A stretch of 64,000 nt of DNA. Source: Poritiphilus flavus. GTDB lineage: Bacteria; Bacteroidota; Bacteroidia; Flavobacteriales; Flavobacteriaceae. The stretch is taken from the NCBI RefSeq assembly GCF_009901585.1, contig NZ_WXYO01000005.1, positions 186,001 to 250,000 of the forward strand. The letters are read 5' to 3'. A program made the translations under genes and the position numbers. The notes beneath the pieces were generated by a model, which had not been told where the DNA came from, did not search any database, and was given only the letters and a program-made list of their open reading frames with translations. Shown here in pieces: positions 1,145 to 41,641 of the stretch (positions are counted from its first letter, which is position 1; each line of letters begins with the position of its first letter).

Positions 1145-4100
1145 ATGAAGTTTGCGGAATACAAAGGACTGGATTTACCAAAAGTAGCAGAAGAGATACT
1201 GCATTTTTGGAAAGAAAAGGCCGTGTTTGAACAAAGTGTTTCTTCCCGGGAAGGCAAGGAGCCTTTTGTCTTCTACGAAGGCCCTCCATCGGCTAATGGA
1301 ATGCCCGGTATTCATCATGTAATGGCACGAACCATCAAGGATATTTTCCCAAGGTATAAGACCATGAAGGGATACCAGGTGAAGCGGAAGGCTGGCTGGG
1401 ATACCCATGGATTGCCCATTGAGCTGGGAGTGGAAAAAGAACTTGGGATTACCAAGGAAGATATCGGTAAGAAAATATCAGTAGCGGAGTACAACGAGGC
1501 TTGTAAAAAGGCCGTTATGCGTTATACCGATGTTTGGAATGATATGACCGAGCGCGTGGGCTATTGGGTAGACATGGACGACCCCTATATCACCTACGAA
1601 CCCAAGTATATGGAATCTGTATGGTGGTTGCTCAAGCAGATCTATGACAAAGGCCTTTTGTACAAAGGTTACACCATCCAACCCTATTCGCCAAAGGCGG
1701 GAACCGGACTTAGTTCTCATGAACTGAATCAGCCCGGAACCTATCAGGATATAACGGATACTACTGCAATAGCGCAATTTAAAGCTAAAAAAGACAGCCT
1801 TCCTGAATTTCTAAGCGCTACAGGAAGCGATATACATTTCCTGGCATGGACCACCACTCCGTGGACCCTACCCAGTAATACGGCCCTGACCGTTGGGCCA
1901 AAGATTGAATATGTACTGGTAAGGACTTTCAATCAATATACTTTTGAAGCCGTGGCTGTGGTTCTGGCCAAAACCCTGGTTGAGAAAGTATTTTCCGGGC
2001 GATTTTTTGAAGTTGAAGATGAAGGAGAATTGGCTTCATATGCTGAAAATGACAAAAAGATCCCGTATTTCATTCATAGCAGCTTTAAGGGGAAAGAGCT
2101 TGTTGGAATTTCTTATGAGCAGCTTCTGGATTATGCACAACCCTATCAGAATCCGGAAAACGCGTTCCGCGTAATTGCAGGGGATTTCGTTACCACCGAA
2201 GACGGTACCGGGATAGTTCACACAGCACCTACCTTTGGTGCAGACGATATGCAGGTCGCTCAAAAAGCGAAGCCAGCCGTTCCACCAATGCTCGTACTGG
2301 ACGAACATGGAAACCCCGTACCTCTGGTAGACCTGCAGGGAAGATTCCGGCCGGAGATGAAAGAGCTGGCTGGCAAATATGTCAAGAATGAGTACTACGA
2401 GGAGGGTACTGCCCCGGAAAGGTCTGTGGATGTAGAGATTGCCATAAGGCTCAAAGAAGAGAACAAAGCATTTAAAGTAGAAAAGTACGTTCACAGCTAC
2501 CCGAATTGCTGGCGTACGGATAAACCCATACTCTATTATCCGCTGGATTCCTGGTTCATCAAGGTCACGGAAGTGAAGGACCGCATGTACGAACTGAACC
2601 AGACCATCAACTGGAAACCCAAAGCCACCGGGGACGGACGCTTCGGAAACTGGCTTGCCAATGCCAACGACTGGAACCTCTCCAGGTCCAGGTATTGGGG
2701 GATACCATTACCTATCTGGCGAACCGAAGACCGCAAAGAAGAAATTATCATCGGTTCCGTGGAAGAGCTGAAGAATGAAATGAAGAAGGCAGTAGAGGCC
2801 GGAGTAATGGAAAGTGAGGTATTCTCGGATTTCGAAGTTGGGAATATGAGTGATGCCAACTATGATAAAATCGATCTTCACAAGAATATCGTGGATGAGA
2901 TCGTGCTGGTCTCAGCCTCCGGAAAACCCATGAGGCGGGAGAACGATCTGATAGACGTTTGGTTTGACAGTGGTTCCATGCCTTATGCGCAATGGCACTA
3001 CCCTTTCGAAAACCAGGACCTGATCGATAAGAATATCACCTTTCCCGCAAACTTTATCGCCGAAGGGGTGGATCAGACCAGGGGATGGTTCTATACCCTG
3101 CATGCCATAGCCACTATGGTTTTTGACTCTGTGGCTTACCGCAATGTGGTATCTAATGGCCTGGTGTTGGATAAGGACGGCAAAAAGATGTCTAAACGAC
3201 TCGGAAATGCGGCAGATCCCTTCGAGACCATGGATGAGCACGGTGCAGATGCCACCAGGTGGTACCTGATATCCAATGCCAATCCGTGGGATAATTTAAA
3301 GTTCGATATAGAAGGTATCGTTGAGGTAAAAAGGAAGTTCTTTGGAACCCTGTACAATACGTATTCCTTTTTCGCCCTCTACGCCAATATAGATGCTTTT
3401 ACCTATAAGGAGGAGGCTATACCTCTAAAAGACAGGCCGGAAATAGACCAGTGGATCCTTTCCGAATTGCACAGCCTTGTTCAAATTGTGGATGCGGCTT
3501 ATGCGGATTATGAACCTACCCGTGCGGCCCGTTCCATTTCTGATTTTGTTCAGGAAAAACTGAGTAACTGGTATGTACGGCTGAGCAGGAGGCGGTTCTG
3601 GAAAGGCGACTATCAACAGGATAAGATCGCGGCCTATCAAACCTTGTACAGCTGTCTGGAAACCATTGCCAAACTGATGGCTCCTGTAGCGCCATTCTAT
3701 GCGGACAGGCTTTATAAGGACCTGATCGCTGCAAGTGGGAAAGAGCCTTTTGAAAGTGTGCACCTGGCAGATTTTCCGAAATCCGATAAGGCGATGATCA
3801 ACCCTGCCCTTGAAAGCAAGATGCAAAAGGCCCAGGATATAGCGTCTTTAGTGTTTTCGATCAGGCAAAAACAGAAGATCAAGGTCAGGCAACCCCTACA
3901 TAAGATCATGATCCCTGTGCTGGACGAGACCCAGAAACAAGAGATCGAGGCGGTAAGCGGACTGATCAAGTCCGAAGTCAATGTTAAGGAGATAGAATTG
4001 CTGGACGATGCATCCGGTATCCTGGTAAAACAGATCAAACCCAACTTTAAAGTTCTGGGGCCAAGGTTCGGAAAAGATATGAAATTAGTGGCTCAGGCGA

Positions 4101-4546
4101 TCGCTAAACTGGACCAGGAAGACATCAAAAAAATTGAACAGCAGGGCGAAATAACGCTGGAGATAGAAAATAAAAGTATTATATTACAGTTAGAGGAAGT
4201 AGAAATATCTTCTCAGGACATAGAAGGATGGCTGGTGGCTAGTTCAGGCCCGCTGACTGTAGCCCTGGATATCACAATCGATGAAGACCTGAGGAAAGAG
4301 GGCATTGCCAGGGAACTGGTTAACCGGATTCAAAATCTGAGAAAAGAATCAGGTTTTGAGGTGACGGACAAAATCAATATCAAAATATTGAAAGACGGAA
4401 CTGTAGAAAAAGCGGTGGCAAGTAATATGGATTACATCAAAACCGAAACCTTAACTGCAGAACTGGATTTTGAAGAAAGACTGGAAAGAGGTACGGAGAT
4501 TACCTTTGATGAAGTAAATACGAAATTGTTTATTCAAAAACACTAA
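1145..4546 (+). CDS. ileS: Isoleucyl-tRNA synthetase
   Basis: This enzyme charges tRNA-Ile with isoleucine in the cytoplasm and edits misactivated valine. The 1133-residue length fits the long-type bacterial/eukaryotic-like class I enzyme. The ATP-binding GPPSANG/GIHH signature (HIGH motif) is at residues 46-58 and KMSKR is at 681-685. The editing (CP1) insertion lies between them, with motifs such as WTTTPWTLPSNTAL. The anticodon-binding and C-terminal domains follow (RPEIDQWILSEL, SDFVQEKLSNWYVRLSRRRFW). The ATG at 1145 gives a normal N terminus and sits 34 bp after a TAnnTTTG box. The DksA-like gene begins 4 bp downstream, so the two are probably cotranscribed. Confidence 0.98.
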   Translation: MKFAEYKGLDLPKVAEEILHFWKEKAVFEQSVSSREGKEPFVFYEGPPSANGMPGIHHVMARTIKDIFPRYKTMKGYQVKRKAGWDTHGLPIELGVEKELGITKEDIGKKISVAEYNEACKKAVMRYTDVWNDMTERVGYWVDMDDPYITYEPKYMESVWWLLKQIYDKGLLYKGYTIQPYSPKAGTGLSSHELNQPGTYQDITDTTAIAQFKAKKDSLPEFLSATGSDIHFLAWTTTPWTLPSNTALTVGPKIEYVLVRTFNQYTFEAVAVVLAKTLVEKVFSGRFFEVEDEGELASYAENDKKIPYFIHSSFKGKELVGISYEQLLDYAQPYQNPENAFRVIAGDFVTTEDGTGIVHTAPTFGADDMQVAQKAKPAVPPMLVLDEHGNPVPLVDLQGRFRPEMKELAGKYVKNEYYEEGTAPERSVDVEIAIRLKEENKAFKVEKYVHSYPNCWRTDKPILYYPLDSWFIKVTEVKDRMYELNQTINWKPKATGDGRFGNWLANANDWNLSRSRYWGIPLPIWRTEDRKEEIIIGSVEELKNEMKKAVEAGVMESEVFSDFEVGNMSDANYDKIDLHKNIVDEIVLVSASGKPMRRENDLIDVWFDSGSMPYAQWHYPFENQDLIDKNITFPANFIAEGVDQTRGWFYTLHAIATMVFDSVAYRNVVSNGLVLDKDGKKMSKRLGNAADPFETMDEHGADATRWYLISNANPWDNLKFDIEGIVEVKRKFFGTLYNTYSFFALYANIDAFTYKEEAIPLKDRPEIDQWILSELHSLVQIVDAAYADYEPTRAARSISDFVQEKLSNWYVRLSRRRFWKGDYQQDKIAAYQTLYSCLETIAKLMAPVAPFYADRLYKDLIAASGKEPFESVHLADFPKSDKAMINPALESKMQKAQDIASLVFSIRQKQKIKVRQPLHKIMIPVLDETQKQEIEAVSGLIKSEVNVKEIELLDDASGILVKQIKPNFKVLGPRFGKDMKLVAQAIAKLDQEDIKKIEQQGEITLEIENKSIILQLEEVEISSQDIEGWLVASSGPLTVALDITIDEDLRKEGIARELVNRIQNLRKESGFEVTDKINIKILKDGTVEKAVASNMDYIKTETLTAELDFEERLERGTEITFDEVNTKLFIQKH

Positions 4547-4550
4547 AACA

Positions 4551-4934
4551 ATGGCAAAAGATTTAAAAGTTAGATATTCGGATAAGGAGTTAGAAGAATT
4601 CCGCGTACTCATAGAGGAAAAGATCGAAAAAGCCAAAAGCCATTTAGAATTATTGAAGAGCTCCTATATGAATGACGGGAATAACGGTACGGATGATACC
4701 GCCCCGACATTTAAAGCATTTGAAGAGGGGTCTGAAACCATGAGTAAAGAGGCAAATACTCAGTTGGCTATTCGGCAGGAGAAGTTTATACGCGATCTCA
4801 AGAACGCTCTTTTGCGAATTGAGAACAAAACATACGGAATATGCCGGGTAACCGGAAAACTCATCAATAAGGAACGGCTGAAGTTAGTTCCCCACGCCAC
4901 ACTCAGCATTGAGGCGAAAAACATGCAAAAGTAG
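4551..4934 (+). CDS. DksA/TraR-like protein with degenerate zinc finger
   Basis: The 127-residue product has the N-terminal coiled coil and C-terminal globular tail of the DksA/TraR family, which binds RNA polymerase through its secondary channel and tunes transcription, often with ppGpp. The C-terminal motif YGICRVTGKLINKERL followed by PHATLSIEAK aligns with the zinc-finger region of DksA. Only one of the four cysteines remains; the others are Thr, Ser and Ala, so a classic zinc site is absent. Bacteroidota commonly carry such zinc-less forms. The gene starts 4 bp after ileS and ends just before a strong terminator, making it the last gene of that unit. Confidence 0.9.
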   Translation: MAKDLKVRYSDKELEEFRVLIEEKIEKAKSHLELLKSSYMNDGNNGTDDTAPTFKAFEEGSETMSKEANTQLAIRQEKFIRDLKNALLRIENKTYGICRVTGKLINKERLKLVPHATLSIEAKNMQK

Positions 4935-4942
4935 AACCGCAC

Positions 4943-4966
4943 AACGCCTCCATGAGGCGTTTTTTT
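4943..4966 (+). terminator. Intrinsic terminator after ileS-dksA-like operon
   Basis: A perfect 8-bp stem (AACGCCTC with GAGGCGTT) closes a 3-nt loop and runs into seven T residues. The stem lies 9 bp after the stop of the DksA-like gene. It overlaps the ATG at 4952, which argues against that codon as the start of the next gene. Confidence 0.9.
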
Positions 4967-5596
4967 ATGAAAAGGGGAGCTATAGTACTTTTATTCCTGA
5001 TCTTTTCCAACGGACTATTGGGGCAAAAGCTAATTGAGAAAAAGCTGATCAGCCCCGGGATAAGATCGGTTCAGGTAGATACTGCCAACTGTTTCGAAGT
5101 GGAACTGCAGAACTCGGCCAGCGAAGAATTGACTGTTGAGGCAAGCATTGAAGGCGAATACAGCAAAGACCTTTTGGTTAAAATAAGTGAAGAAGGCACA
5201 ACCCTTAAGGTCAGCGCGGGATTTCAACCCAATTTCAGGAACCCTAATGACAAGCTAAGCGCTCACAAGGTGGTTTCTATTGCCCTGATCGTTCGTATTC
5301 CACAATTCAGGCAGGTGAAGGTCTACGGGACCAACAGCAACATCACGGTAAGCGGAAATTACAAAGCGCTTTCAGTAACTCTTGATGATGGCAGGTGCAT
5401 ACTGAACAATGTGGGCTACGACACCGCGGTAACCACTGCAAGCGGGGATATTCTGGTTTACAGTGAGGCCGGTATTGTAGACGCCCTGTCCAAGTTCGGT
5501 ACGGTAAAGGACACGCGGATCCCGCCTGGGGACAATCGGTATTTGCTCCGTACCACTTCAGGTAATGTAACGATTAGTAAAACGGACAAACTCTAA
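4967..5596 (+). CDS. Secreted DUF2807-like (auto-transporter adhesin head type) protein
   Basis: The protein is about 209 residues. It begins with a signal peptide (MKRGAIVLLFLIFSNGLLGQ), followed by a beta-rich domain with repeated short strands. Phrases such as VYGTNSNITVSGNYKALSV and ATTASGDILVYSEAG resemble the GIN/DUF2807 beta-solenoid fold common in Bacteroidota surface proteins. No catalytic motif is visible. The longer frame from 4952 was not used, because that ATG lies inside the upstream terminator hairpin; 4967 directly precedes the signal peptide. No promoter box was recognised, so transcription may depend on readthrough or an atypical promoter. The family role is uncertain and the assignment rests on fold-level resemblance only. 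Confidence 0.7.
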   Translation: MKRGAIVLLFLIFSNGLLGQKLIEKKLISPGIRSVQVDTANCFEVELQNSASEELTVEASIEGEYSKDLLVKISEEGTTLKVSAGFQPNFRNPNDKLSAHKVVSIALIVRIPQFRQVKVYGTNSNITVSGNYKALSVTLDDGRCILNNVGYDTAVTTASGDILVYSEAGIVDALSKFGTVKDTRIPPGDNRYLLRTTSGNVTISKTDKL

Positions 5597-5619
5597 GTTA
5601 TTTGTGAATGATGAGATTC

Positions 5620-5652
5620 TTGACGGCTATTGCCTAATAATCCCTATTTTTG
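5620..5652 (+). promoter_or_regulatory. Promoter of lspA (-33 TTG, -7 TATTTTTG)
   Basis: A TTG at 5620-5622 and TATTTTTG at 5645-5652 are separated by 22 bp, within the 17-23 bp expected for flavobacterial promoters. The predicted transcript start is near 5657. This rules out the TTG at 5630 as the lspA start and leaves a leader of only about 9-15 nt. Confidence 0.6.
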
Positions 5653-5671
5653 CCCAATCCATTTTATGCTC

Positions 5672-6370
5672 ATGCGTCTAAGATATTCCCTGCTGCTTAT
5701 TGTACTTGTACTGCTGATAGACCAGATCACCAAAATATACGTGAAAACTCATTTTGTTTTGGGGGAACCGGTGGAGGTATTCAGCTGGTTCAAAATACTT
5801 TTTATTGAGAACGAAGGAGCAGCCTGGGGCACAAAATTGAGTGATATCCTGCCCATTTCGGACTCTGCCGGAAAACTGATCCTCACCATTTTCAGACTTT
5901 TTGCCATAGTAGGGATCGGGTACTGGCTTTATGATATTGTGGCCAAAAAGGCATCCAAAACGCTTATAATTTCGGTCTCCCTGATCTTTGCCGGAGCCTT
6001 TGGAAATATTATCGATTCTGTTTTTTACGGGGTGATCTTTGACGATAGCTACAATCAGGTAGCAACCTTGTTTTCGGATGAACCCTATGGCAGTATTTTC
6101 TACGGAAAGGTGGTAGATATGTTATACTTCCCGATGATAGATACCACCTGGCCGGAATGGATGCCGTTCATCGGAGGAAACGACTTTCGCTTCTTTGAGC
6201 CCGTTTTTAATATTGCAGACACCGCAATAAGTACCGGCGTAGGCATACTGATCGTCTTTAATAAGAAGGCTTTTGGAAAGAAGGAAAAGGATAAGGAAGT
6301 GATTTCAGAACAATCCGTCCAGGAAGAACAGCAGGAACAACAAGAGCAGCAGGAGCCTCAGAATATATAA
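5672..6370 (+). CDS. lspA: Lipoprotein signal peptidase (signal peptidase II)
   Basis: This inner-membrane aspartyl protease removes signal peptides from lipid-modified prolipoproteins, a step all lipoproteins in this window require. The two catalytic aspartates are in GNIID (D115) and FNIAD (D183), and four hydrophobic segments are evident. The protein is about 232 residues, longer than the roughly 160 of E. coli LspA. The extra length comes from an insertion between the two motifs (FDDSYNQVATLFSDEPYG region) and a Gln/Glu-rich tail, both usual in Flavobacteria. ATG codons at 5666 and 5672 are both possible. The 3' end overlaps the convergent cyclo-ligase gene by 13 bp. Confidence 0.95.
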   Translation: MRLRYSLLLIVLVLLIDQITKIYVKTHFVLGEPVEVFSWFKILFIENEGAAWGTKLSDILPISDSAGKLILTIFRLFAIVGIGYWLYDIVAKKASKTLIISVSLIFAGAFGNIIDSVFYGVIFDDSYNQVATLFSDEPYGSIFYGKVVDMLYFPMIDTTWPEWMPFIGGNDFRFFEPVFNIADTAISTGVGILIVFNKKAFGKKEKDKEVISEQSVQEEQQEQQEQQEPQNI

Positions 6371-6918
6371 GTTTCCTTAGGAGTAACACAGTAGTTCATG
6401 GGGATGTCCGACTCCTGTAATTCGGGAATGGCTTCCTCAGCTTCGAACAAAGAAAGACCAATCTTGATCACATCCGGTCTGCATTGCCGGAGAAAGTTGT
6501 CGTAAAACCCCTTCCCGTAACCCAGTCTGTTACCAGACTTATCAAAGGCCAAAAGCGGCATAAAGACCACATCTATTTTTTCAACAGGTACTTCCAGGCC
6601 CGCCACAGGTTCCGGGACGTTCCAGCTGTTCTTTTTCAATACCGTATTGTCTGTAAGAAGGAAATGCCGGAGTTCAGACCTGCCTTCGATTTTGGGGATC
6701 ACAATGTTTTTGTCCTTACCCTGAAGTACAGAGAGCAGGAAAGAAGTGTTGACTTCTTTCTTCTCTTCAATCTGTAAAAAAATGTGGTAGAAATGAAGGT
6801 CCCAGATAGGGAGGTCTAATAGCTTGTTAGTTAAAACTAAACTGGCGCTGTTAAGCGCCTGTAAAGAAAGTTTTTCTCTTAGTTTAGCATACTGCGACCT
6901 AAGATCTTTTTTAAGCAT
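6358..6918 (-). CDS. 5-formyltetrahydrofolate cyclo-ligase
   Basis: This 186-residue cytoplasmic enzyme uses ATP to turn 5-formyl-THF into 5,10-methenyl-THF, salvaging folate. It carries an N-terminal basic helix (KKDLRSQYAKLRE) and the characteristic nucleotide/substrate loop GNRLGYGKGFYDNFL near the C terminus, both hallmarks of the 5-FTHF cyclo-ligase family (YgfA/Fau/MTHFS). Length is normal for bacteria. The gene runs leftward and its stop overlaps the lspA 3' end by 13 bp. A 28-codon membrane-peptide frame ends 43 bp upstream on the same strand. In E. coli the homologous gene lies downstream of 6S RNA, which makes the non-coding sequence upstream here worth a covariance search. Confidence 0.95.
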   Translation of the reverse strand: MLKKDLRSQYAKLREKLSLQALNSASLVLTNKLLDLPIWDLHFYHIFLQIEEKKEVNTSFLLSVLQGKDKNIVIPKIEGRSELRHFLLTDNTVLKKNSWNVPEPVAGLEVPVEKIDVVFMPLLAFDKSGNRLGYGKGFYDNFLRQCRPDVIKIGLSLFEAEEAIPELQESDIPMNYCVTPKETYIF

Positions 6919-6961
6919 CAGGGTCTGTTAAACTCTGGGTGGGGAACTATTTACTTCAAAT

Positions 6962-7048
6962 TTAATCTTTTGCGGTGACCGCAAAATAAATCTTAATAAA
7001 CAGCATCAGAATAAGGTACATACCCAAGGTAATAAGATAGTTGTCCAT
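6962..7048 (-). CDS. Possible 28-residue single-pass membrane peptide
   Basis: A short frame on the minus strand starts with ATG at 7048 and ends with TAA at 6962. It encodes MDNYLITLGMYLILMLF followed by IKIYFAVTAKD. Residues 5-24 are almost continuously hydrophobic, enough for one transmembrane helix, with charged residues at both ends. It lies 43 bp upstream of the folate cyclo-ligase gene in the same direction, so it may be a cotranscribed small protein or a leader peptide. A perfect 8-bp hairpin overlaps its last codons. I do not recognise the family. Chance hydrophobic frames of this size do occur, so confidence is limited. Confidence 0.4.
   Translation of the reverse strand: MDNYLITLGMYLILMLFIKIYFAVTAKD
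6968..6986. promoter_or_regulatory. Perfect hairpin between small ORF and folate cyclo-ligase gene
   Basis: TTTTGCGG and CCGCAAAA form a perfect 8-bp inverted repeat around a 3-nt loop, overlapping the 3' end of the 28-codon frame. On the minus strand it would sit 50 nt before the cyclo-ligase start, as a leader hairpin or weak attenuator. There is no long T tract on either strand, so it is not a typical terminator. Confidence 0.45.
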
Positions 7049-7466
7049 ATTTGTGCTAGTTTTTGATGTTATAAATGTAAATAAAAAAAATATATAAATC
7101 CCCATAAAATGCCCTTATTCATCGATGAAATGCACAAATTTGGAATTTTTTTAACATTCAGCTAACCAAAAAGTAACTAAAATTTTAAGCGGTTTAAATG
7201 TAAGACATTGATAATCAAAAAGTTAAATAAAAACACTACAAAAACCGGTTTTAGCCATCCGGCAAACGACCCTGTTGAAATACACAGATCAGCGGACATA
7301 GAGACCTGCAAAACTCGCCTGGTGGGGATGGATAAAACGCGTTAAATCAGCTAATAAGAGAGCGGTCATTTCCGATCTTAATCCAGGAATAAAGAGCATT
7401 TTGTCGAATTTTATGGAATCCGCGTTAAAAACGTCCGGGCTAGTGCGTTGGAATGCCCTGGAAATT
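7049..7466. other. Mostly non-coding gap between the folate cyclo-ligase side and uvrC
   Basis: No convincing gene was found in this stretch. The left half (about 7049-7240) is very AT-rich. The right half (about 7240-7440) has the base composition of the genes, yet it is broken by stops in all frames. It contains the 12-bp palindrome AAAACCGGTTTT at 7241-7252, plus CCATCC near 7255 and GGATGG near 7326 that could close a structured RNA of about 75 nt. It could be a non-coding RNA on either strand, a decayed gene, or simply divergent promoter DNA. Confidence 0.5.
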
Positions 7467-7474
7467 TATCTTTG
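7448..7474 (+). promoter_or_regulatory. Promoter of uvrC (-33 TTG, -7 TATCTTTG)
   Basis: TTG at 7448-7450 and TATCTTTG at 7467-7474 are 16 bp apart, close to the flavobacterial optimum. The predicted start is near 7479, leaving a leader of about 25 nt before the uvrC ATG at 7504. Confidence 0.6.
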
Positions 7475-7503
7475 TTAGAGCGCTACACACTTGAATAGAG
7501 CGA

Positions 7504-9291
7504 ATGCCTGAACTTTCAATCGAAATACAGCTAAGTACACTTCCCGATAATCCCGGGGTTTACCAATTCTATGACTCTGAGGGAAAAATACTCTACGTAG
7601 GCAAGGCTAAGAACCTTAAGAAAAGGGTCTCCTCCTATTTTGCCAAAACTCATGAATATGGCAAAACCAGGGTCCTGGTTAAGAAGATCAGCCTGATCAA
7701 GCATATCGTGGTCCCTACGGAATCAGATGCGCTACTGTTGGAGAATAACCTGATCAAAAAGTATCAGCCGCGTTACAACGTACAGTTGAAAGACGACAAA
7801 TCTTACCCCTGGATCTGTATTAAGAATGAGCGTTTTCCAAGAATATTCCCGACGCGCAAATTGATCCGGGACGGTTCTGAATACTTCGGCCCTTACACCA
7901 GGATGACGACCGTTAAAACCCTCCTGGATCTCATAAAGAGCGTCTATCCTTTGCGTACCTGCAATTACGATCTCTCCGAAGAGAAAATTAAGGCTGGCAA
8001 ATACAAGGTTTGCCTGGAGTACCACCTTGGGAATTGCAAGGGGCCTTGTGAGGGTCTGCAAAGTGCTGAAGAATATCACAATCAGATTGCGGATATTCGG
8101 GAGATCATCAAGGGAAATTTTAAAACCTCCCTGGCCTACTTCCGAAAGCGCATGAAGTCCTTGGCCGCAGAAATGAAGTTCGAGGAGGCACAACGGATCA
8201 AGGATAAAATAGAAGTACTGGAGAATTACCAGGTAAAGTCCACCATTGTCAATCCGAAGATCAACAATGTGGATGTATTCAGCATAATTTCCGATGAGGC
8301 ATTTGCCTATGTCAATTTTTTACAGCTTTCCCATGGTTCCATTATCCGTTCCCATACCATGGAAATCAAAAAGAAGCTGGACGAAACAGACGAAGAGCTT
8401 TTGCAACTGGCGGTAGTGGAGATCAGGCAACGATTCGACTCCCAATCCAGGGAATTGTATGTGCCTTTTCCCATAGCTGTTTCAGAGGATATAAAGCTTA
8501 CCTTGCCCAAACTTGGCGATAAGAAAAAGATATTGGACCTTTCCGAACGAAACGCCAGGTTTTTCAGGCAGGAACGCTTCAAACAGGTGAAAATAACCGA
8601 TCCGGACCGGCATACCAACCGTATCATGGCGCAAATGCAAAAAGACCTGAGATTGTCTGCCGAACCCAGGCATATTGAGTGTTTTGACAATTCCAATATG
8701 CAGGGAAGTCACCCCGTAGCGGCCTGTGTGGTTTTCCGCAACGGGAAACCTGCCAAAAAAGAGTACCGCCATTTCAATATCAAAACTGTTGAGGGGCCGG
8801 ATGATTTTGCCTCCATGGAAGAAGTGGTTTTCAGAAGGTACAGACGTTTGCTTAACGAAGGAGAATCACTACCGCAGCTGGTGGTAATAGACGGTGGAAA
8901 AGGACAGTTGTCTTCGGCACTCAAAAGCCTGGACATTCTTGGGCTCAGAGGAAAGATCGCCATCATTGGGATTGCCAAAAGGCTTGAAGAGATCTATTTT
9001 CCTGAAGACCCCATCCCTCTATACCTCGATAAAAAATCAGAATCTTTAAAGATCATACAGCAGTTGAGGAATGAAGCTCACCGTTTTGGAATAAGCTTTC
9101 ACAGGAACAAGAGAAGCAAGGCGGCCATTAATTCTGAACTGGAAAGTATTGAGGGCATAGGAGAGAAAACCGCCAACGAGCTTTTGCAGCGCTTCAAGTC
9201 TGTAAAAAGGATCAAAGAAGCGAGTATGGAAGATCTTTCAAAAACGGTCGGGATGGCGAAGGCGAAAAAAATCTATGAGAACTTTCACTAA
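7504..9291 (+). CDS. uvrC: UvrABC system protein C (excinuclease subunit)
   Basis: UvrC makes the dual incisions flanking bulky DNA lesions during nucleotide excision repair, after UvrA and UvrB have loaded. The 595-residue protein shows the N-terminal GIY-YIG nuclease (NPGVYQFYDSEGKILYVGKA, residues about 13-32), the cysteine cluster (CNYDL, CLEYHLGNCKGPCEG), the UvrB-binding UVR helix near residues 205-235, the RNase H-like second nuclease (ECFDNSNMQGSHPVA, VVIDGGKGQLSSAL) and C-terminal helix-hairpin-helix motifs (LESIEGIGEKTANELLQRF). Length is typical. The patatin-barrel gene starts only 6 bp after the stop, so the two probably share a transcript. Confidence 0.98.
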   Translation: MPELSIEIQLSTLPDNPGVYQFYDSEGKILYVGKAKNLKKRVSSYFAKTHEYGKTRVLVKKISLIKHIVVPTESDALLLENNLIKKYQPRYNVQLKDDKSYPWICIKNERFPRIFPTRKLIRDGSEYFGPYTRMTTVKTLLDLIKSVYPLRTCNYDLSEEKIKAGKYKVCLEYHLGNCKGPCEGLQSAEEYHNQIADIREIIKGNFKTSLAYFRKRMKSLAAEMKFEEAQRIKDKIEVLENYQVKSTIVNPKINNVDVFSIISDEAFAYVNFLQLSHGSIIRSHTMEIKKKLDETDEELLQLAVVEIRQRFDSQSRELYVPFPIAVSEDIKLTLPKLGDKKKILDLSERNARFFRQERFKQVKITDPDRHTNRIMAQMQKDLRLSAEPRHIECFDNSNMQGSHPVAACVVFRNGKPAKKEYRHFNIKTVEGPDDFASMEEVVFRRYRRLLNEGESLPQLVVIDGGKGQLSSALKSLDILGLRGKIAIIGIAKRLEEIYFPEDPIPLYLDKKSESLKIIQQLRNEAHRFGISFHRNKRSKAAINSELESIEGIGEKTANELLQRFKSVKRIKEASMEDLSKTVGMAKAKKIYENFH

Positions 9292-34563: not shown

Positions 34564-36111
34564 ATGGCAAATCAGGAAGACATTTTTAAGAAGGTAATAG
34601 CTCATGCCAAGGAGTATGGCTATGTGGTACAGTCCAGTGAGATCTACGACGGACTGAGCGCGGTTTACGACTATACCCAGAACGGCGCTGAACTCAAAAA
34701 GAATATCCGCGAATATTGGTGGAAAGCCATGGTACAGATGCACGAAAATATCGTGGGGATAGACGCCGCTATATTTATGCATCCTACCACCTGGAAAGCC
34801 TCGGGGCACGTAGATGCCTTTAACGACCCACTTATAGACAACAAGGACTCCAAAAAAAGATATCGGGCAGATGTATTGATCGAGGATCATGTAGCCAAGA
34901 TTGAAGCCAAGATCGACAAAGAAGTAAACAAGGCCGCCAAACGTTTTGGGGAAGCTTTTGATAAGGAGCAGTTCTTAAGCACCAATACCAGGGTTGTTGA
35001 ATACCGCAAAAAGGCTTCAGACATCCTTCAACGTATGGGGAGATCTCTGGAAGCTGAGGATCTGGATGATGTTAAAAAACTTATAGAAGAGCTTGGCATT
35101 GTATGCCCTGTTTCCGGTTCCAAGAACTGGACGGATGTCAAGCAATTCAACCTGATGTTCGGCACCAAATTAGGAGCTTCAGCGGAAACGGCCACGGACC
35201 TCTACCTAAGGCCCGAAACCGCCCAGGGGATCTTTGTGAATTTTCTCAATGTCCAAAAGTCAGGCCGATTAAAGATCCCATTCGGGATCGCCCAGATTGG
35301 AAAGGCGTTTAGAAATGAGATCGTCGCCAGGCAATTCATTTTCAGGATGCGTGAATTTGAGCAGATGGAAATGCAGTTTTTCATCAGACCAGGATCTCAA
35401 AAGGAGTGGTACGAAAAGTGGAAAGAAACCCGAATGAAATGGCATTTGAGCCTGGGAATGGGCGAGGAGAATTACCGTTTTCACGACCACGAAAAGCTCG
35501 CGCACTACGCGGATGCGGCAGCCGACATTGAATTCAAGTTTCCGTTTGGTTTTAAAGAATTGGAAGGGATACATTCCCGAACAGACTTCGATCTTAGAAG
35601 CCATGAAGAGTATTCCGGTAAAAAATTACAGTATTTTGATCCGGAGCTTAATGAGAGCTACGTTCCCTATGTTGTGGAAACCTCAATAGGCCTGGATCGT
35701 ATGTTTTTGGCCGTATTTTCTCATGCCCTACAGGAAGAGGAACTGGAAAATGGCAGTACCAGGACCGTCTTGCGCATCCCGGCAGTATTGGCACCTACCA
35801 AAGCAGCTGTATTGCCATTGGTAAAGAAAGACGGCCTTCCGGAAATTGCGCATAAAATTATAGCCGATCTGAAATGGGATTTCAATGTGATCTATGACGA
35901 AAAGGATGCTGTGGGAAGAAGATACCGAAGGCAGGATGCCGCGGGTACTCCCTTCTGTATCACTGTAGACCATCAGACCCTGGAGGATAATACAGTGACC
36001 ATACGCCACAGAGACTCCATGGAACAACTGCGGGTCAGTATAGATTCTCTGAGGAACCATATCGCCGCTGAAGTTGATATGAGTGCCTGGCTCAAAAAGA
36101 TAGACTCATAG
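34564..36111 (+). CDS. glyS: Glycyl-tRNA synthetase (homodimeric type)
   Basis: This class II synthetase attaches glycine to tRNA-Gly. The 515-residue product is the single-chain (alpha2) form. Motifs include DLYLRPETAQGIFVNFLNV, motif 2 FGIAQIGKAFRNEI...RMREFEQMEMQFF, motif 3 ETSIGLDRMFLAVF and a C-terminal anticodon-binding domain (VLPLVKKDGLPEIAHKI). The ATG lies 5 bases after the end of a TATTTTTG box, so the messenger may be leaderless. Its last 6 bp overlap the convergent TonB-receptor gene. Length is slightly longer than typical 460-500-residue forms owing to an N-terminal insertion around residues 85-150. Confidence 0.97.
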   Translation: MANQEDIFKKVIAHAKEYGYVVQSSEIYDGLSAVYDYTQNGAELKKNIREYWWKAMVQMHENIVGIDAAIFMHPTTWKASGHVDAFNDPLIDNKDSKKRYRADVLIEDHVAKIEAKIDKEVNKAAKRFGEAFDKEQFLSTNTRVVEYRKKASDILQRMGRSLEAEDLDDVKKLIEELGIVCPVSGSKNWTDVKQFNLMFGTKLGASAETATDLYLRPETAQGIFVNFLNVQKSGRLKIPFGIAQIGKAFRNEIVARQFIFRMREFEQMEMQFFIRPGSQKEWYEKWKETRMKWHLSLGMGEENYRFHDHEKLAHYADAAADIEFKFPFGFKELEGIHSRTDFDLRSHEEYSGKKLQYFDPELNESYVPYVVETSIGLDRMFLAVFSHALQEEELENGSTRTVLRIPAVLAPTKAAVLPLVKKDGLPEIAHKIIADLKWDFNVIYDEKDAVGRRYRRQDAAGTPFCITVDHQTLEDNTVTIRHRDSMEQLRVSIDSLRNHIAAEVDMSAWLKKIDS

Positions 36112-38184
36112 GTTATAAGTAAGCCGAATACCTGCGTAGTAGTTTCGATTGTTTCCCGGATAGAAAAAACGAGGTTCCCGGCCTCCAAAGCTGGGGGCAT
36201 TTATCAATACGGATCTTGCGTAACGAACGTCAAAGATATTGTTCACACCTAATTGCAGGCCAACTGAAAGGTCTTCAAACAGGTCTTGATCGTACCCTAT
36301 CCTGCTATTGAATATCCCAAAAGGTTCACTGGAAAGTGAATTGGAATCAGTAAGCGGGATCTTCCCCACATAGTTGTATCGCGCGCTCCAGAAGAGGTGT
36401 TTCCCTCTCAGGCGGAATCCCATATTCAAACGGTGTTTCGGAACACCCGTTAAGGGATTACCGGAGAAGTCTTCGCCATCATCAACAAAATCAATAAAAC
36501 TGTGGTCGTTTAAGGTGTAAGCCAGGAAAGGTGATAGGGAAAAATCCTTGTTCAGATCCAGCTTATAGTCAACCTGCAATTCTATTCCCTGATGCCTGGT
36601 TTCACCCGCGTTTCTACCGATAAACTGGTCTTCCCCCACCCGTTCTGCTACCAGCAGGTTCTTGATTTCCATCCGGTAGAGGGTAAGATCTATCCAAAGC
36701 TTGGTTTTAGGCCAGAACATGAACCGGGTACCAAGTTCATAATTTGTGCCGGTTTCCTGTTTGATATCCGGATTTATTACCCCATCCGGTGTCAGGGTCT
36801 CCTCCAGGCTCGGGTTAGAAAACCCCCGACTCAGATTGGCATAGATCCGGTAGCGATAATCCGGGGTATATACCAGGCTAAGGCTCGGCAAAAAGATCGT
36901 ATCGAAACTGCGGTCAGCGCTGCGGTTCCCTGCCCCGACAAAAAAGCGGTCCCTAAAATCGTAGGCCGTATGGTTAACATTCAGACCAAGTTGTGCCTGA
37001 AAGCTATCTGAGAGGGGGAGGGTTAAAGACCCGAATCCATTGAACTGCCGTCGGAACTCTTTGTTGTCGCTGATACGGTCTCCGAGCAGACTTCCGTTAC
37101 CGTTATTCTGTTCGTATAGGTTAGCAAAAGTGCCCCAGCGGTATTCATCTACATAAAACTCTCCTCCAAAAAGGTACTCCGCTGACCTGTTACCTAAATT
37201 AAAGTTTCCACTGAATCTTGTCCTGAAACCAAAACCGTTGGTGAATTCATCCAGAATATTGAAAGGCCTGGGTTCATAGTGATCCAGATAGGTGTAAAAT
37301 ACACTGCTGTTGTTCCGGAAATTCTCGCTGAAGTCAAAGCTGTGGGACAAACCGACCAGGGTGTATTTATTCGCCTCAAAACCTCTGGCCTGACGCCAGG
37401 TGAAAGCGGCCTGTCTCGGATTTTCCCTAAAAGCCGTTCCGCTTATCGAGCTGGGTATCTGGGCCGTGTAGTCTATGTAATTAAACAGCAAGGAGATGCT
37501 GCTTTTTTTGCTGATCTTATAGGCGGTATTTAAAAGAATACCATCTCTTTCGAATTCATTGTTCTCCCGGTAACCATCTGTCCTTACATGCCCGTAGCGA
37601 AGGCTCATGGAAAATGCTCCATCTGCATGAGTAAAGCTGAGGTTGTCTTTTATCAACCCATACGAGCCAAAAGAAAAACGGTTTTCCAATCGGGTAAAGT
37701 CTTCATCACCGAGCGGCGTATTGAGGAGTATGGCACCACCGAGATTGGTTCCGAAAGCGGTCGCCTTGGGGCCTTTGATGATCTCGATCGCCTCAAGGTT
37801 CTCAAGATCAAAAGCCTCAATAGTGGAAAAACCCGTACCGTTGGTGACCGGAATATCATTGTAGTATAGGCGCAGCTTGTCCGTCCCAAAAAGCGTCCTG
37901 GATCCTACTCCACGAATTGTGATCCTGTTGGTATTCAAAGCACCTGAGAGTACATAAACCCCGGATACCTGATTGATGGCAGATACTACGTCTATGGGAT
38001 TGTGATCTTCCAGGAATTTACCCCGGATCACCTGGGAAGGTGTAATACCAGTTGCTTTTTTATTTTGAACCGGATCTACAATAACCACCTCATCCAGGTA
38101 AGTGACGGAATCATTTTTTACCTCCTGGCTATGGCAGAAAAAAGTGAGACTGAGCAATACGGCGAAAGGAAAATAGTGCCTCAT
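36106..38184 (-). CDS. TonB-dependent receptor (siderophore-receptor-like)
   Basis: The 692-residue outer-membrane receptor has a signal peptide (to HSQ, residue about 20) and a TonB-box-like segment (VTYLDEVVIVDP). It has a plug without a carboxypeptidase-D domain (ITIRGVGSRTLFGTDKLRLYYND, IEIIKGPKATAFGTNLGGAI) and a barrel ending with RLTYNL. The size and plug resemble ferric-siderophore or metal receptors more than glycan receptors. A small outer-membrane barrel gene lies 28 bp upstream in the same direction, suggesting an operon. No Fur box could be recognised. The 3' end overlaps glyS by 6 bp. Confidence 0.92.
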   Translation of the reverse strand: MRHYFPFAVLLSLTFFCHSQEVKNDSVTYLDEVVIVDPVQNKKATGITPSQVIRGKFLEDHNPIDVVSAINQVSGVYVLSGALNTNRITIRGVGSRTLFGTDKLRLYYNDIPVTNGTGFSTIEAFDLENLEAIEIIKGPKATAFGTNLGGAILLNTPLGDEDFTRLENRFSFGSYGLIKDNLSFTHADGAFSMSLRYGHVRTDGYRENNEFERDGILLNTAYKISKKSSISLLFNYIDYTAQIPSSISGTAFRENPRQAAFTWRQARGFEANKYTLVGLSHSFDFSENFRNNSSVFYTYLDHYEPRPFNILDEFTNGFGFRTRFSGNFNLGNRSAEYLFGGEFYVDEYRWGTFANLYEQNNGNGSLLGDRISDNKEFRRQFNGFGSLTLPLSDSFQAQLGLNVNHTAYDFRDRFFVGAGNRSADRSFDTIFLPSLSLVYTPDYRYRIYANLSRGFSNPSLEETLTPDGVINPDIKQETGTNYELGTRFMFWPKTKLWIDLTLYRMEIKNLLVAERVGEDQFIGRNAGETRHQGIELQVDYKLDLNKDFSLSPFLAYTLNDHSFIDFVDDGEDFSGNPLTGVPKHRLNMGFRLRGKHLFWSARYNYVGKIPLTDSNSLSSEPFGIFNSRIGYDQDLFEDLSVGLQLGVNNIFDVRYARSVLINAPSFGGREPRFFYPGNNRNYYAGIRLTYNL

Positions 38185-38212: not shown

Positions 38213-38731
38213 TTAAAAGCGAAATCCAACAGACAGCCCGGCACGATAAATGAAACTATCCTGAAAGTCTTCGGGGTTAATATTCCGCCCGATCCCTCCG
38301 TGGATCTCCAGGGAAAACTTTTGACTGCGTGTAACCCATTTATTGCCTAACCCAAGCCCCAGAGCAAAAGAGCTATAATCCAGGTTTCTCCCTCCCGGCT
38401 GGGTGTTATTGTCGCTTTCCTCACCCGTGTAATACAAACCGAAGGCCTCGGCGAAAAATCCGCTTCTAGGGCCGTATCCAAAATAGGCCCGAAAATTTGG
38501 TCCAATACCGAAGTTTCCGTTATAGTCTTCCGCATCGTTATCAAAATAAACCGTACCTCCTATACTGGTGTCTTCACTAAGGTAATACTCGTAGCTCCCT
38601 TCAACAGTGGTGTTTACCAGGAATAAACCCATATTCAATTTTAGTTCATGGTCATTAGCTAAGGTGGGATAAGCCTGGGCCTGCATCAAATAAGCGGATA
38701 GTATTAGTAAGCCAGTAAGAATTTTTTTCAT
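38213..38731 (-). CDS. Small outer-membrane beta-barrel protein
   Basis: The 172-residue protein has a signal peptide (MKKILTGLLILSAYLMQAQA) and alternating hydrophobic/polar strands with Gly/Tyr-rich turns. Examples are VEGSYEYYLSEDTSIGGTVYF and IGPNFRAYFGYGPRSGFFAEAFG; it ends in AGLSVGFRF with a terminal Phe. This fits an 8-strand porin-like or DUF3575-type barrel. It precedes the TonB-receptor gene by 28 bp and likely shares its transcript. The ligand is unknown. Confidence 0.82.
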   Translation of the reverse strand: MKKILTGLLILSAYLMQAQAYPTLANDHELKLNMGLFLVNTTVEGSYEYYLSEDTSIGGTVYFDNDAEDYNGNFGIGPNFRAYFGYGPRSGFFAEAFGLYYTGEESDNNTQPGGRNLDYSSFALGLGLGNKWVTRSQKFSLEIHGGIGRNINPEDFQDSFIYRAGLSVGFRF

Positions 38732-38816: not shown

Positions 38817-39617
38817 CTAAAACGAAAAGCCAATCCCCTTTTTGAGTTTCTCATTGTACCTCGGTACGTCAAAACTGTACAGGTACGGGGCTTTGTGTGC
38901 TTTACCCGTAAGTTGTTTCTCATGCCTCTTGAGAATATTCAGCGCCAGCATTTTTCTTTGAAAATTTCCCCTGTCCAGGCTACGGTTTAACAAGACTTCA
39001 TAAAGGTTTTGAAGGTCTTGCATGGTAAATTTTTTCGACAATAAAGATAAACCGATAGGCAAATAGTTCAGTTGTGTTTGTACATGGGCAATGGCTTTTT
39101 GAAGGATGTGGCTATGGTCCAATATCAACTCCGGAAGGGCCTTTAAGGATTTCCATTCACATTGACTACTCATAAAATCGGGTTGCGGGCTTACCTTGTT
39201 GAGCTGAACCAGGGCAAAATAGCCCGTGGTAATAAAGCGATCCCGTAGGAAGGCTGAAACCTTATCCGGTTCTTTAAAAGGGTACTGCTTCAACATATTA
39301 TTAAGCATCGCGATCTCGGATTTACTGCTTACAGATCGCCTGTCCTGTCCGCCAAAGGTGTAAAACTGTTGCAGGAAGATAGACCCCAGTCCGGTACGTT
39401 CCTCAAGTATCCGGGTAGCGGCCGTGTCCAGGTCTTCCGATTTCCTGATAAATCCACCCGGTAGAGACCATAGATCCTGTCCCTTTCTTCGAAGCAGAAG
39501 TACTTTTAGCTCGTTGTCGTGATACCCCAGTATCACACAGTCAATAGAGTGTCCCGGGATTACATCATTCAGATGTGCTTCAAATTGGTGAACATGATCT
39601 TCCGATCTTAAGGCCAT
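38817..39617 (-). CDS. NUDIX-domain winged-helix transcriptional regulator (NrtR/AraR-like)
   Basis: The 266-residue protein has an N-terminal NUDIX-like domain (residues about 18-165) and a C-terminal winged helix (about 180-266; FTMQDLQNLYEVLLNR, NFQRKMLALNILKR). The NUDIX box reads GGFIRKSEDL...RILEERTGL, so the catalytic REUXEE core is altered. This is usual for regulators that sense a sugar or nucleotide rather than hydrolyse it. NrtR-type proteins control NAD metabolism and AraR of Bacteroides controls arabinose use. This gene is divergent from a GH3 glycosidase, with two matching palindromes between them, so it most likely represses that gene, and perhaps itself, in response to a sugar. 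Confidence 0.88.
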   Translation of the reverse strand: MALRSEDHVHQFEAHLNDVIPGHSIDCVILGYHDNELKVLLLRRKGQDLWSLPGGFIRKSEDLDTAATRILEERTGLGSIFLQQFYTFGGQDRRSVSSKSEIAMLNNMLKQYPFKEPDKVSAFLRDRFITTGYFALVQLNKVSPQPDFMSSQCEWKSLKALPELILDHSHILQKAIAHVQTQLNYLPIGLSLLSKKFTMQDLQNLYEVLLNRSLDRGNFQRKMLALNILKRHEKQLTGKAHKAPYLYSFDVPRYNEKLKKGIGFSF

Positions 39618-39633
39618 AAACAGCTAAATTTAA

Positions 39634-39650
39634 TGTGTCAGGTTGACACA
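39634..39650. promoter_or_regulatory. Operator site 1 between NUDIX regulator and GH3 gene
   Basis: TGTGTCA-GGT-TGACACA is a perfect inverted repeat with 7-bp arms. It occupies the -36 to -20 region of the predicted GH3 promoter and lies 17 bp from the regulator start codon. Confidence 0.7.
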
Positions 39651-39657
39651 ATAAGAA

Positions 39658-39665
39658 TAAATTTG
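39658..39665 (+). promoter_or_regulatory. Promoter -7 box of GH3 gene
   Basis: TAAATTTG lies between the two operator palindromes. The predicted transcript start is near 39670, giving a 25-nt leader that contains operator 2. Confidence 0.6.
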
Positions 39666-39671
39666 TATTAT

Positions 39672-39688
39672 TGTGTCAATTTTACAAA
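39672..39688. promoter_or_regulatory. Operator site 2 in the GH3 leader
   Basis: TGTGTCA-ATT-TTACAAA repeats the left arm of site 1 exactly and matches five of seven positions in the right arm. The site centres are 38 bp apart. It covers the predicted transcript start, a classical repression position. Confidence 0.6.
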
Positions 39689-39694
39689 ATAAAA

Positions 39695-41641
39695 ATGAAA
39701 AAGTTTTTCAAAATACTGTTGTACATCATCGGAGGGCTGGTTGTGATCGCCCTGCTAGTCTATGGTGGATTTAAGATCAAGTGGCACAGAGCCTCAAGTG
39801 CCAATATGGAACTGGCCGGAGAACTCGCTCCGGAACTCAATATCCAGGGGCTGAAGTTTCGGGACCTGAACAAAAACGGGAAACTGGACATCTATGAGGA
39901 TTTCAGGGAAAGTATCCCTGCCCGGGTAGAGGATCTGCTCTCCCAAATGACCCTTGAGGAAAAGGCGGGTTTGCTATTCATTCATATTCAGGTAATGGGT
40001 GAAGACGGGGAGCTCAATGAGATCCCTACCCTGGGCAATCCCTTTTCACTGATGCTGGAAAGTCCTTCTACCCAGATCTATCGAAAGAATATGAACCATT
40101 TCAATCTCATGGAATCCCCTTCTGCCCTGGCAACGGCTAACTGGGGCAACAGCCTTCAGGAGCTCGCTGAACGTACACGCTTAGGGATCCCGGTAACCAT
40201 CGCCACAGATCCCAGACACGGTAAGGGCTTCAATGTGGGTACCACTGTTGGCACCCGTTTTATTTCGCGTTGGCCTTCACCTCTTGGTTTAGGCGCTACC
40301 CGTGATTCAGCCCTGGTACGCGAATTTGGGGATATCGCCAGGCAGGAATACCTGGCTCTTGGATTCCGGCTCGCCTTGCATCCTATGGCAGACCTGGCTA
40401 CGGAACCCCGCTGGGCAAGGGTTAATGGTACCTTTGGCGAAGACGCCCACCTGAGTGCAAAACTTACAGAAGCTTATGTTTTAGGATTCCAGGGAGATAG
40501 TCTTGGTTCCAGCAGTGTGGCCTGTATGACCAAGCATTTTTCAGGCGGAGGCCCTCAGGAGGACGGCTGGGACGCTCATTTTGCATCCGGGGTTAACCAG
40601 GCCTATCCGGGGGATAATTTTGATTACCATCTCATTCCTTTTACCGACGGAGCCCTTAAAGCGAATACCGCCATGATCATGCCTTATTACGGCATTCCAA
40701 AAGAACAAACTTCGGAAGAAGTCGCTTTCGCCTTCAATAAGGATATCATTACCGGTCTGTTGCGGGATTCTTTGAACTACGACGGTGTTGTTTGTACCGA
40801 CTGGGGCCTGGTAACCGATATGTTCGTTAAAACCGCATCGGCCTGGGGTGTGGAACACCTAAGCGAAAAGGATCGGGTGAAAAAGATCCTGGATGCAGGC
40901 TGTGATATGTTCGGCGGTGAGTCAAGGCCGGAACTGGTTGTGGCTCTTGTTGAGGAAGGGCAAATTAGCGAAGAAAGATTGAATACTTCCGTAAGGAGAA
41001 TACTTCGTGAAAAATTCCGACTTGGCCTCTTCGAAAACGCATATGTTGATACCGAAAAACTCGGCGTAGTGGGTAACCCGGAGTTTGTTGAAAAGGGAAA
41101 AGAAGCACAGCGCAAATCTATGGTCCTGTTAAAGAACGAACAGGGCTTCCTGCCACTTTCAGGAGACAAAAAGATCTACCTTTCCGGAATGTCAGAAGGC
41201 CTGTCGGGGAAATTCCCGCAGATCGTTACGGACCCCGAGGATGCTGATATTATTGTTCAGAAGTTACAGACCCCTTTCTCTCCTCCGAAAGGAGACGATA
41301 TGCTGGAGCGTTTTATTCGCCAGGGAAGACTGGACTTTGAAGAGGAAGAACTCAAGGAAATTCTGGAGCTCACCAATTCCAAACCCACAGTCACGGTACT
41401 GAGTATTGAAAGGCCTCCCGTAGTCCCTGAGATCAACAAAGCCAGCAAGGCAGTGATCGCTGATTTTGAATGTGAAGATGAGATCATTTTGGAGTTGATC
41501 TACGGAAAATTCAATCCTTCCGGAAAATTACCTCTGGAGATACCTTCCTCTCCCGAAGCGGTTCAGAACCAACTTGAAGATGTACCCTATGACTCCAAAA
41601 ACCCACTATATCCCTATGGGCACGGTTTAACTTTTAATTAA
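39695..41641 (+). CDS. Membrane-anchored glycoside hydrolase family 3 enzyme
   Basis: The 648-residue protein starts with a hydrophobic anchor (residues 6-25). An EF-hand/dockerin-like loop (DLNKNGKLDIYED, about 56-68) and the two-domain GH3 core follow. The catalytic nucleophile is Asp369 in VVCTDWG, with substrate-binding ATDPRHGKG and ACMTKHFSGGGP upstream. The C-terminal domain ends at YPYGHGLTFN. GH3 enzymes release glucose, xylose or related sugars from beta-glycosides; the precise sugar cannot be told. The location is periplasmic or surface, anchored at the N terminus. ATG 39695 was chosen, since the TTG at 39671 lies at the transcript start and inside operator 2. Likely controlled by the divergent NUDIX regulator. 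Confidence 0.94.
   Translation: MKKFFKILLYIIGGLVVIALLVYGGFKIKWHRASSANMELAGELAPELNIQGLKFRDLNKNGKLDIYEDFRESIPARVEDLLSQMTLEEKAGLLFIHIQVMGEDGELNEIPTLGNPFSLMLESPSTQIYRKNMNHFNLMESPSALATANWGNSLQELAERTRLGIPVTIATDPRHGKGFNVGTTVGTRFISRWPSPLGLGATRDSALVREFGDIARQEYLALGFRLALHPMADLATEPRWARVNGTFGEDAHLSAKLTEAYVLGFQGDSLGSSSVACMTKHFSGGGPQEDGWDAHFASGVNQAYPGDNFDYHLIPFTDGALKANTAMIMPYYGIPKEQTSEEVAFAFNKDIITGLLRDSLNYDGVVCTDWGLVTDMFVKTASAWGVEHLSEKDRVKKILDAGCDMFGGESRPELVVALVEEGQISEERLNTSVRRILREKFRLGLFENAYVDTEKLGVVGNPEFVEKGKEAQRKSMVLLKNEQGFLPLSGDKKIYLSGMSEGLSGKFPQIVTDPEDADIIVQKLQTPFSPPKGDDMLERFIRQGRLDFEEEELKEILELTNSKPTVTVLSIERPPVVPEINKASKAVIADFECEDEIILELIYGKFNPSGKLPLEIPSSPEAVQNQLEDVPYDSKNPLYPYGHGLTFN

Follow-up and report, generated by a model that had tools for sequence, protein, structure and literature searches.

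The window analysed here, a stretch of 64,000 nucleotides, carries a putative Nudix-type regulator gene on the minus strand and, diverging from it on the plus strand, a gene for a GH3 glycosidase. Their start codons are 77 bp apart, and two candidate operators lie in between:

38817..39617, minus strand: regulator, 266 residues, with a Nudix-like domain and an NrtR/AraR-type winged helix; ATG at 39615-39617
39634..39650, no strand assigned: operator 1, TGTGTCAGGTTGACACA (TGTGTCA-GGT-TGACACA; GTGT-N7-ACAC), over the -33 region of the GH3 promoter
39672..39688, no strand assigned: operator 2, TGTGTCAATTTTACAAA (TGTGTCA-ATT-TTACAAA), 6 bp before the GH3 ATG
39695..41641, plus strand: GH3 glycosidase, the presumed target, 648 residues, with a hydrophobic N-terminus; ATG at 39695

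Operator 1 is a perfect 7-3-7 inverted repeat about a 3-bp centre and has the exact GTGT-N7-ACAC form; operator 2, also with a 3-bp centre, reads GTGT-N7-ACAA, its arms match at 5/7 positions, and it is extended outwards by TTAT...ATAA. The coordinates, the sequences and the 38-bp distance between centres that the earlier note gave for these TGTGTCA palindromes were all confirmed, as was its description of the first as a perfect inverted repeat (7/7 arm positions). Beyond the regulator, and likewise on the minus strand, lies a TonB-dependent receptor gene (36106-38184; top NCBIfam match PqqU, below the cut-off), separated from the regulator gene by a gene for a 172-residue protein (38213-38731); the order of these three genes is collinear in loci L093, L095 and L096.

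The regulator and its GH3 partner

The regulator has Pfam matches above the cut-offs to NUDIX (40.5 bits) and NrtR_WHD (64 bits, its best match), and also matches AraR_C. Its nearest solved sequence is that of BtAraR (5bs6, E 3e-32). The predicted fold of the AlphaFold2 model (mean pLDDT 82.7) is closest to AraR (Foldseek E 3.2e-21; Z 22.4, rmsd 2.9, 211 residues), with Shewanella NrtR next (Z 19.6), in a Z ranking by VIA-align that re-ranks Foldseek matches only. The Nudix box is degraded: REUXEE reads RILEER in the window, with two of the three glutamates lost, and in the GH3-paired regulators the first glutamate is replaced by Ile or Val (12/12) and the third by Arg (12/12). These residue counts, and those given below, cover 12 of the 13 GH3-paired proteins, L097 (from the genome of L042) being left out. 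The earlier note had described the neighbour of the GH3 gene as a NUDIX/winged-helix protein of the NrtR/AraR class with a degraded catalytic box, which the Pfam matches, the box residues and the fold match all bear out. On the two predicted domains, the impaired Nudix signature and the palindromic site in the neighbouring promoter, the protein is assigned to the NrtR superfamily. In a tree of 44 regulators, all 13 GH3-paired proteins fall into one group of 17 (support 98/92), the other members being L096, L098, L099 and L104. The clade is new, but it belongs to a kind of regulator already known and is not categorically new. A paralogous group of Nudix regulators (L107, that is G000:C13:54000-73999, and L168-L171) has its own conserved single operator with a TGTAAYAAANTGAGACA core; in three relatives there are, in all, four places where a member lies no more than about 8 kb from other GH3 genes, and in L171 regulator and GH3 gene are divergent with a mixed operator.

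The protein might be a classical NrtR, responsive to ADP-ribose and controlling NAD metabolism, with the GH3 gene as a chance neighbour. It shares the two-domain fold of Shewanella oneidensis NrtR (PDB 3gz5/3gz6), as the Z score of 19.6 and the top-ranking NrtR_WHD domain would lead one to expect of such a protein. However, its score against the NCBIfam NtrR equivalog is 105, against a cut-off of 400, no NAD gene was found among the six neighbours in the window and 15 neighbours in relatives scanned by Pfam, and the link to GH3 is conserved. We consider a classical NrtR to be very unlikely.

The closer comparison is with BtAraR (BT0354), the L-arabinose repressor of Bacteroides thetaiotaomicron (PDB 5bs6/5dd4/5deq). 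The available text on this protein describes tandem AraR operators and a regulon that includes glycosidases, gives GTGT-N7-ACAC as the crystallised operator (Table 2), and names Lys179, Arg180, Asn181 and Lys184 as DNA contacts that are absolutely conserved in AraR (PMC4666351). The regulator described here resembles BtAraR in joining a sensor with a broken Nudix box to a winged helix, in the geometry of operator 1, in the tandem operators upstream of the target, and in having a glycosidase as target. The counterparts of the sugar-site residues Arg86 (11/12) and His131 (12/12) are also kept in the GH3-paired regulators; all such counterparts come from a sequence alignment, with the numbering offset inferred from Gly47-Gly48-Phe49 of the paper. 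Unlike BtAraR, however, most of these proteins (9/12) have Trp in place of Arg34, which contacts O4 of arabinose, with Arg present in 1/12, that of the window. The intercalating Arg180 is replaced by Gly, Ser or Ala in the 12 proteins; Lys179 is replaced by Arg, Asn181 is kept, and Lys184 is Arg or Lys. Since Arg34 and Arg180 are not conserved, the AraR mechanism cannot be transferred in full, and the clade probably reads the same half-site as AraR through somewhat different contacts. The targets also differ, being GH3 or GH20 genes and not araMPRDAB, as does the loop after the Nudix box (residues about 94-125), which is longer than that of AraR and differs in length among family members. In the model (numbered without Met1) helices are predicted at 98-110 and 116-124, and the long loop might cover the ligand pocket. 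Bacteroides XylR (BT0791), an NrtR-family xylose regulator, is likewise a Nudix-type sugar regulator of Bacteroidota, but has a xylRBAE operon according to the available text of PMC3878776.

Both GH3 domains are present in the enzyme (Glyco_hydro_3, 138 bits; Glyco_hydro_3_C, 58.6 bits), and its nearest solved structure is a beta-glucosidase, 9ul7 (E 1.3e-154), which was named in none of the matches listed in a search of the literature on GH3 substrates. By inspection of its hydrophobic N-terminus, the protein is probably anchored in the membrane, facing the periplasm. A search for the arabinose isomerase domain AraA_N (PF02610, E 1e-10) was negative for the window's genome and for 15 of the 16 others searched; the single match among the 17 (G272 C12:45356) lies more than 300 kb from that genome's regulator, and 5 of 14 control genomes were positive in the same search. 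Because Trp mostly takes the place of Arg34 and 16 of the 17 genomes gave no arabinose isomerase match, arabinose is unlikely as the inducer, and it has become a weaker candidate among the pentoses on the ligand list of the earlier note. The clade probably senses another sugar, and as a guess a hexose or an N-acetylhexosamine would be a better starting point.

Conservation of the operator pair

Counted singly, neither site is significant, and either alone could be due to chance. With up to three mismatches the motif occurs three times in the window against 1.83 expected, a number equalled in 25 of 100 shuffles; the window holds six perfect 7-3-7 repeats of any sequence; and the 5.0-Mb genome has one perfect motif match and, with up to two mismatches, six sites against eight for a reversed control pattern. 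Such single-site counts, no higher than the controls in window or genome, are what AT-rich promoter DNA would give if its inverted repeats arose by chance. The pair, however, stands apart. When the spaced pair was scored, with a template drawn up after the sites had already been seen, all 500 dinucleotide shuffles of the 77 bp between the start codons fell short of the window's value. The same was true (0/500 as high) at each of the ten loci, from nine genera and with the window included, at which pair and spacing are conserved, making an origin by chance extremely unlikely.

These loci come from a regulator protein search of 397 family genomes, drawn evenly from a larger group, 43 of which had matches at E <= 1e-40; 30 family loci were examined (L001, L002, L037-L064). 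To count as a GH3 pair, a locus needed a divergent GH3 with 45% identity or more to that of the window; 13 pairs resulted, with the window included. The tallies combine several locus scans, with L042 counted as a miss and the GH20 locus L044 kept apart. Ten of the 13 pairs carry two sites whose centres are separated by 35-39 bp (L001, L002, L037, L038, L039, L040, L045, L046, L047 and L050). Of the others, L051 has two sites at 52 bp, L048 one, and L042, where regulator and GH3 are 54% and 46% identical to those of the window, none. Pair scores computed within 35-40 bp were equalled by shuffles at these three loci (49/500, 8/500 and 228/500, respectively), that of L051 being unremarkable because its 52-bp spacing lies outside the tested range. 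Orthologous regulator/GH3 pairs without the motif were what the earlier note had named as speaking against its reading; the motif is present in 12/13 pairs and two sites in 11/13. At three more loci, excluded from the pair count, the regulator lies beside a distant GH3 (25-26% identical), with one site in L056 and none in L052 or L053.

In weight-matrix scoring with the scored locus left out of training, both sites in all ten two-site loci exceeded the 99.99th percentile of the background (0.8), a background taken from site-holding loci, the maximum of which is not a null value. The weakest is operator 2 of L045 (score 10.4), which is absent from the training set. The 25 training sites, among them the single site of L048, that of L041 and both of L044, were condensed by hand to the consensus TATTATTGTGTCAnnnTnACACAATAA. 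For this scoring, and for the -7 box counts below, L044 was included and the siteless L042 left out. Since pair and spacing are conserved in relatives, we judge from this comparison that the pair is real and functional.

Comparison of the loci further indicates that the predicted operator goes with the regulator clade rather than with the enzyme. In G135 (L044, L099) the place of GH3 opposite the orthologous regulator is taken by a GH20 gene, and two sites are again found 38 bp apart. In G117 (L041, L096) the paired GH3 has gone from a locus otherwise collinear with that of the window, the genome having no GH3 match at E 1e-60, and one site is left. Conversely, the second GH3 of G391, 68% identical to that of the window, is unpaired; its contig gave no regulator match, its gene cluster is a different one, and the 12 kb inspected there hold no site. 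There is one counterexample, G239 (L043, L098), in which a regulator of the same group is adjoined by neither GH3 nor site.

Sites elsewhere in the genomes

A sequence-only profile, R1, was built from the 25 sites, and 150 first-look candidates were scored per genome, out of 2387 in the window's genome and 1239 to 7745 in the others searched; many real second operators are so weak that sites like them would escape the genome pattern with up to two mismatches. Of the 150 candidates scored in the genome of the window, none but the two known sites, both in the training set, fell below E 0.1: operator 2 is the top match (E 7e-5), and operator 1 is matched on both strands. Four non-significant rows followed (E 0.5 to 1.7; C11:379306, C13:61819, C13:63918 and C16:3915), of which C13:63918 precedes a paralogous regulator.

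Fifteen of the 17 genomes with a close regulator homologue have an R1 match at E <= 0.1, as do 6 of 20 control genomes (family genomes without a regulator match at E 1e-40), in which the best E is 0.0084. The strongest sites outside the trained loci, at G040 C1:2723135 (E 3.4e-5), G267 C16:318332 (E 1.6e-4) and G327 C1:356669 (E 9.2e-4), are stronger than any in the controls; each has the full GTGT-N7-ACAC core and is followed, after 11-12 bp, by the predicted ATG of a further GH3-type gene, identified by Pfam in G267 and by BLAST in G040 (85% identical to that of G267) and G327 (37%). G327 has a regulator without an adjoining GH3, and its remote site has arms identical to those of operator 1. 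Among the weaker matches, G117 C1:2655318 (E 0.006), G239 C76 (0.0125) and G239 C144 (0.05) have no GH3 within 1.5 kb, nor do the nine control loci that were fetched; further weak matches are G245 C2:128666 (0.018), G119 C4:375154 (0.02) and G040 C1:1673645 (0.06). The genome search for a regulon that the earlier note had proposed therefore had a divided outcome: among the candidates scored, the window's own genome yielded no additional operator, a difference from BtAraR, and the motif stands before other GH3 genes in three relatives.

These results also bear on whether the sites serve some other factor, such as the second Nudix regulator of the window's genome (C13:64033) or a sugar regulator encoded elsewhere, with the adjacent regulator as a bystander. 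The operator of the paralogous group is similar (TGTAAYAAANTGAGACA core), and cross-binding is possible. Yet the TGTGTCA pair follows the clade of the adjacent regulator, being kept with GH20, persisting as one site where GH3 is missing and absent from the unpaired GH3, and the 20 control genomes hold no comparable site. We regard service to another factor as improbable.

Two minor observations concern the surrounding genes. The weaker G117 site (L143) precedes a gene that by eye resembles those of ThuA-type proteins. In L100 and L102 (genomes G267 and G040) a GH20-type gene lies 3' of GH3 in the same direction, beside the twin operators; GH20 was called by Pfam for L100 and L099 and by clustering for L102.

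The GH3 promoter and the proposed switch

For Flavobacterium psychrophilum, the available text of PMC9723704 gives TAnnTTTG, located at -12 to -5, as the sigma-A box and 24 nt as the median length of the leader. Two elements of this kind lie between the operator centres:

39658..39665, plus strand: TAAATTTG, the -7 box of the earlier note, a perfect consensus; predicted start near 39670
39666..39673, plus strand: TATTATTG (TAnnATTG), a conserved -7-like element; predicted start near 39678

The first is unsupported by conservation as the -7 box, TAnnTTTG being found at that position in 1/12 loci, that of the window. A box opening with TA, TAnn(A/T)TTG, precedes operator 2 in 12/13 loci, against 1/12 with TA at that position before operator 1 (Fisher p 3e-5, only a guide as the loci are related and not independent), and L045, with the weakest operator 2, has a perfect TATATTTG there. 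The last TG of the conserved element forms the first letters of operator 2, which thus overlaps the probable -7 box. The earlier note had placed the sites on either side of a -7 box, with the second over the start; the consensus fit of its box stands, but the conserved box overlaps operator 2 instead. Operator 1 lies over the -33 region in either register. With operator 2 over the -7 box and operator 1 over the -33 region, the arrangement would suit repression by blocking of RNA polymerase. In most of the loci scored, 0-15 bp separate the end of operator 2 from the predicted start codon (about 36 bp in L039). Genuine operators might instead be used by the regulator for activation, but a site that overlaps a -7-like box and ends near the start codon is better placed for repression, and we consider activation distinctly improbable.

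Conservation, the clade link and the AraR-like predicted fold and geometry thus support the earlier reading of the sites as operators of a Nudix-type protein, most likely a repressor. We consider it highly likely, with a probability of about 0.85, that the locus encodes a dedicated local switch in which the regulator represses GH3 via the two operators until a sugar binds; the binding, the repression, the autoregulation and the identity of the sugar we infer. The regulator would bind as a dimer to each operator. Without sugar, the dimer on operator 2 would cover the -7 box and start, and that on operator 1 the -33 region, so that GH3 is off. Sugar in the Nudix pocket would turn the DNA-binding domains and free the promoter. 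The inducer would most likely be a monosaccharide product of the GH3 enzyme, with a hexose or aminosugar preferred to arabinose. The spacing of 35-39 bp corresponds to about 3.5 helical turns, which would put the dimers on nearly opposite faces, and cooperation by contact is therefore not obvious. With just 77 bp between the two genes, the regulator probably also controls its own gene; no conserved box was recognised by eye for that gene's promoter in the sequences inspected. We give even odds to a more specific picture, that the clade has become, in this bacterial family, a near one-promoter switch in which one of the two operators is fused with the -7 box, the operators are kept through exchange of partners (GH3, other GH3 types, GH20), and a non-arabinose sugar is sensed via a pocket with, mostly, Trp for Arg34.

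Accounts of polysaccharide sensing in Bacteroidota usually centre on hybrid two-component systems and sigma/anti-sigma pairs. For sugar switches of the Nudix type outside gut Bacteroides, the locus offers a defined candidate operator together with a regulator and a target, and a literature search, largely of papers outside subscription, found no Nudix regulator of a GH3 gene among the matches listed. Partner exchange and operator loss provide a natural experiment, and the list of ligands to consider is short. Finding the effector would show how one Nudix pocket shifts its specificity and would help to assign substrates to this GH3 subtype. At L120, L123, L130, L046 and L048 the operator core lies 0-12 bp upstream of the predicted start codon, so that part of it would fall in the mRNA leader.
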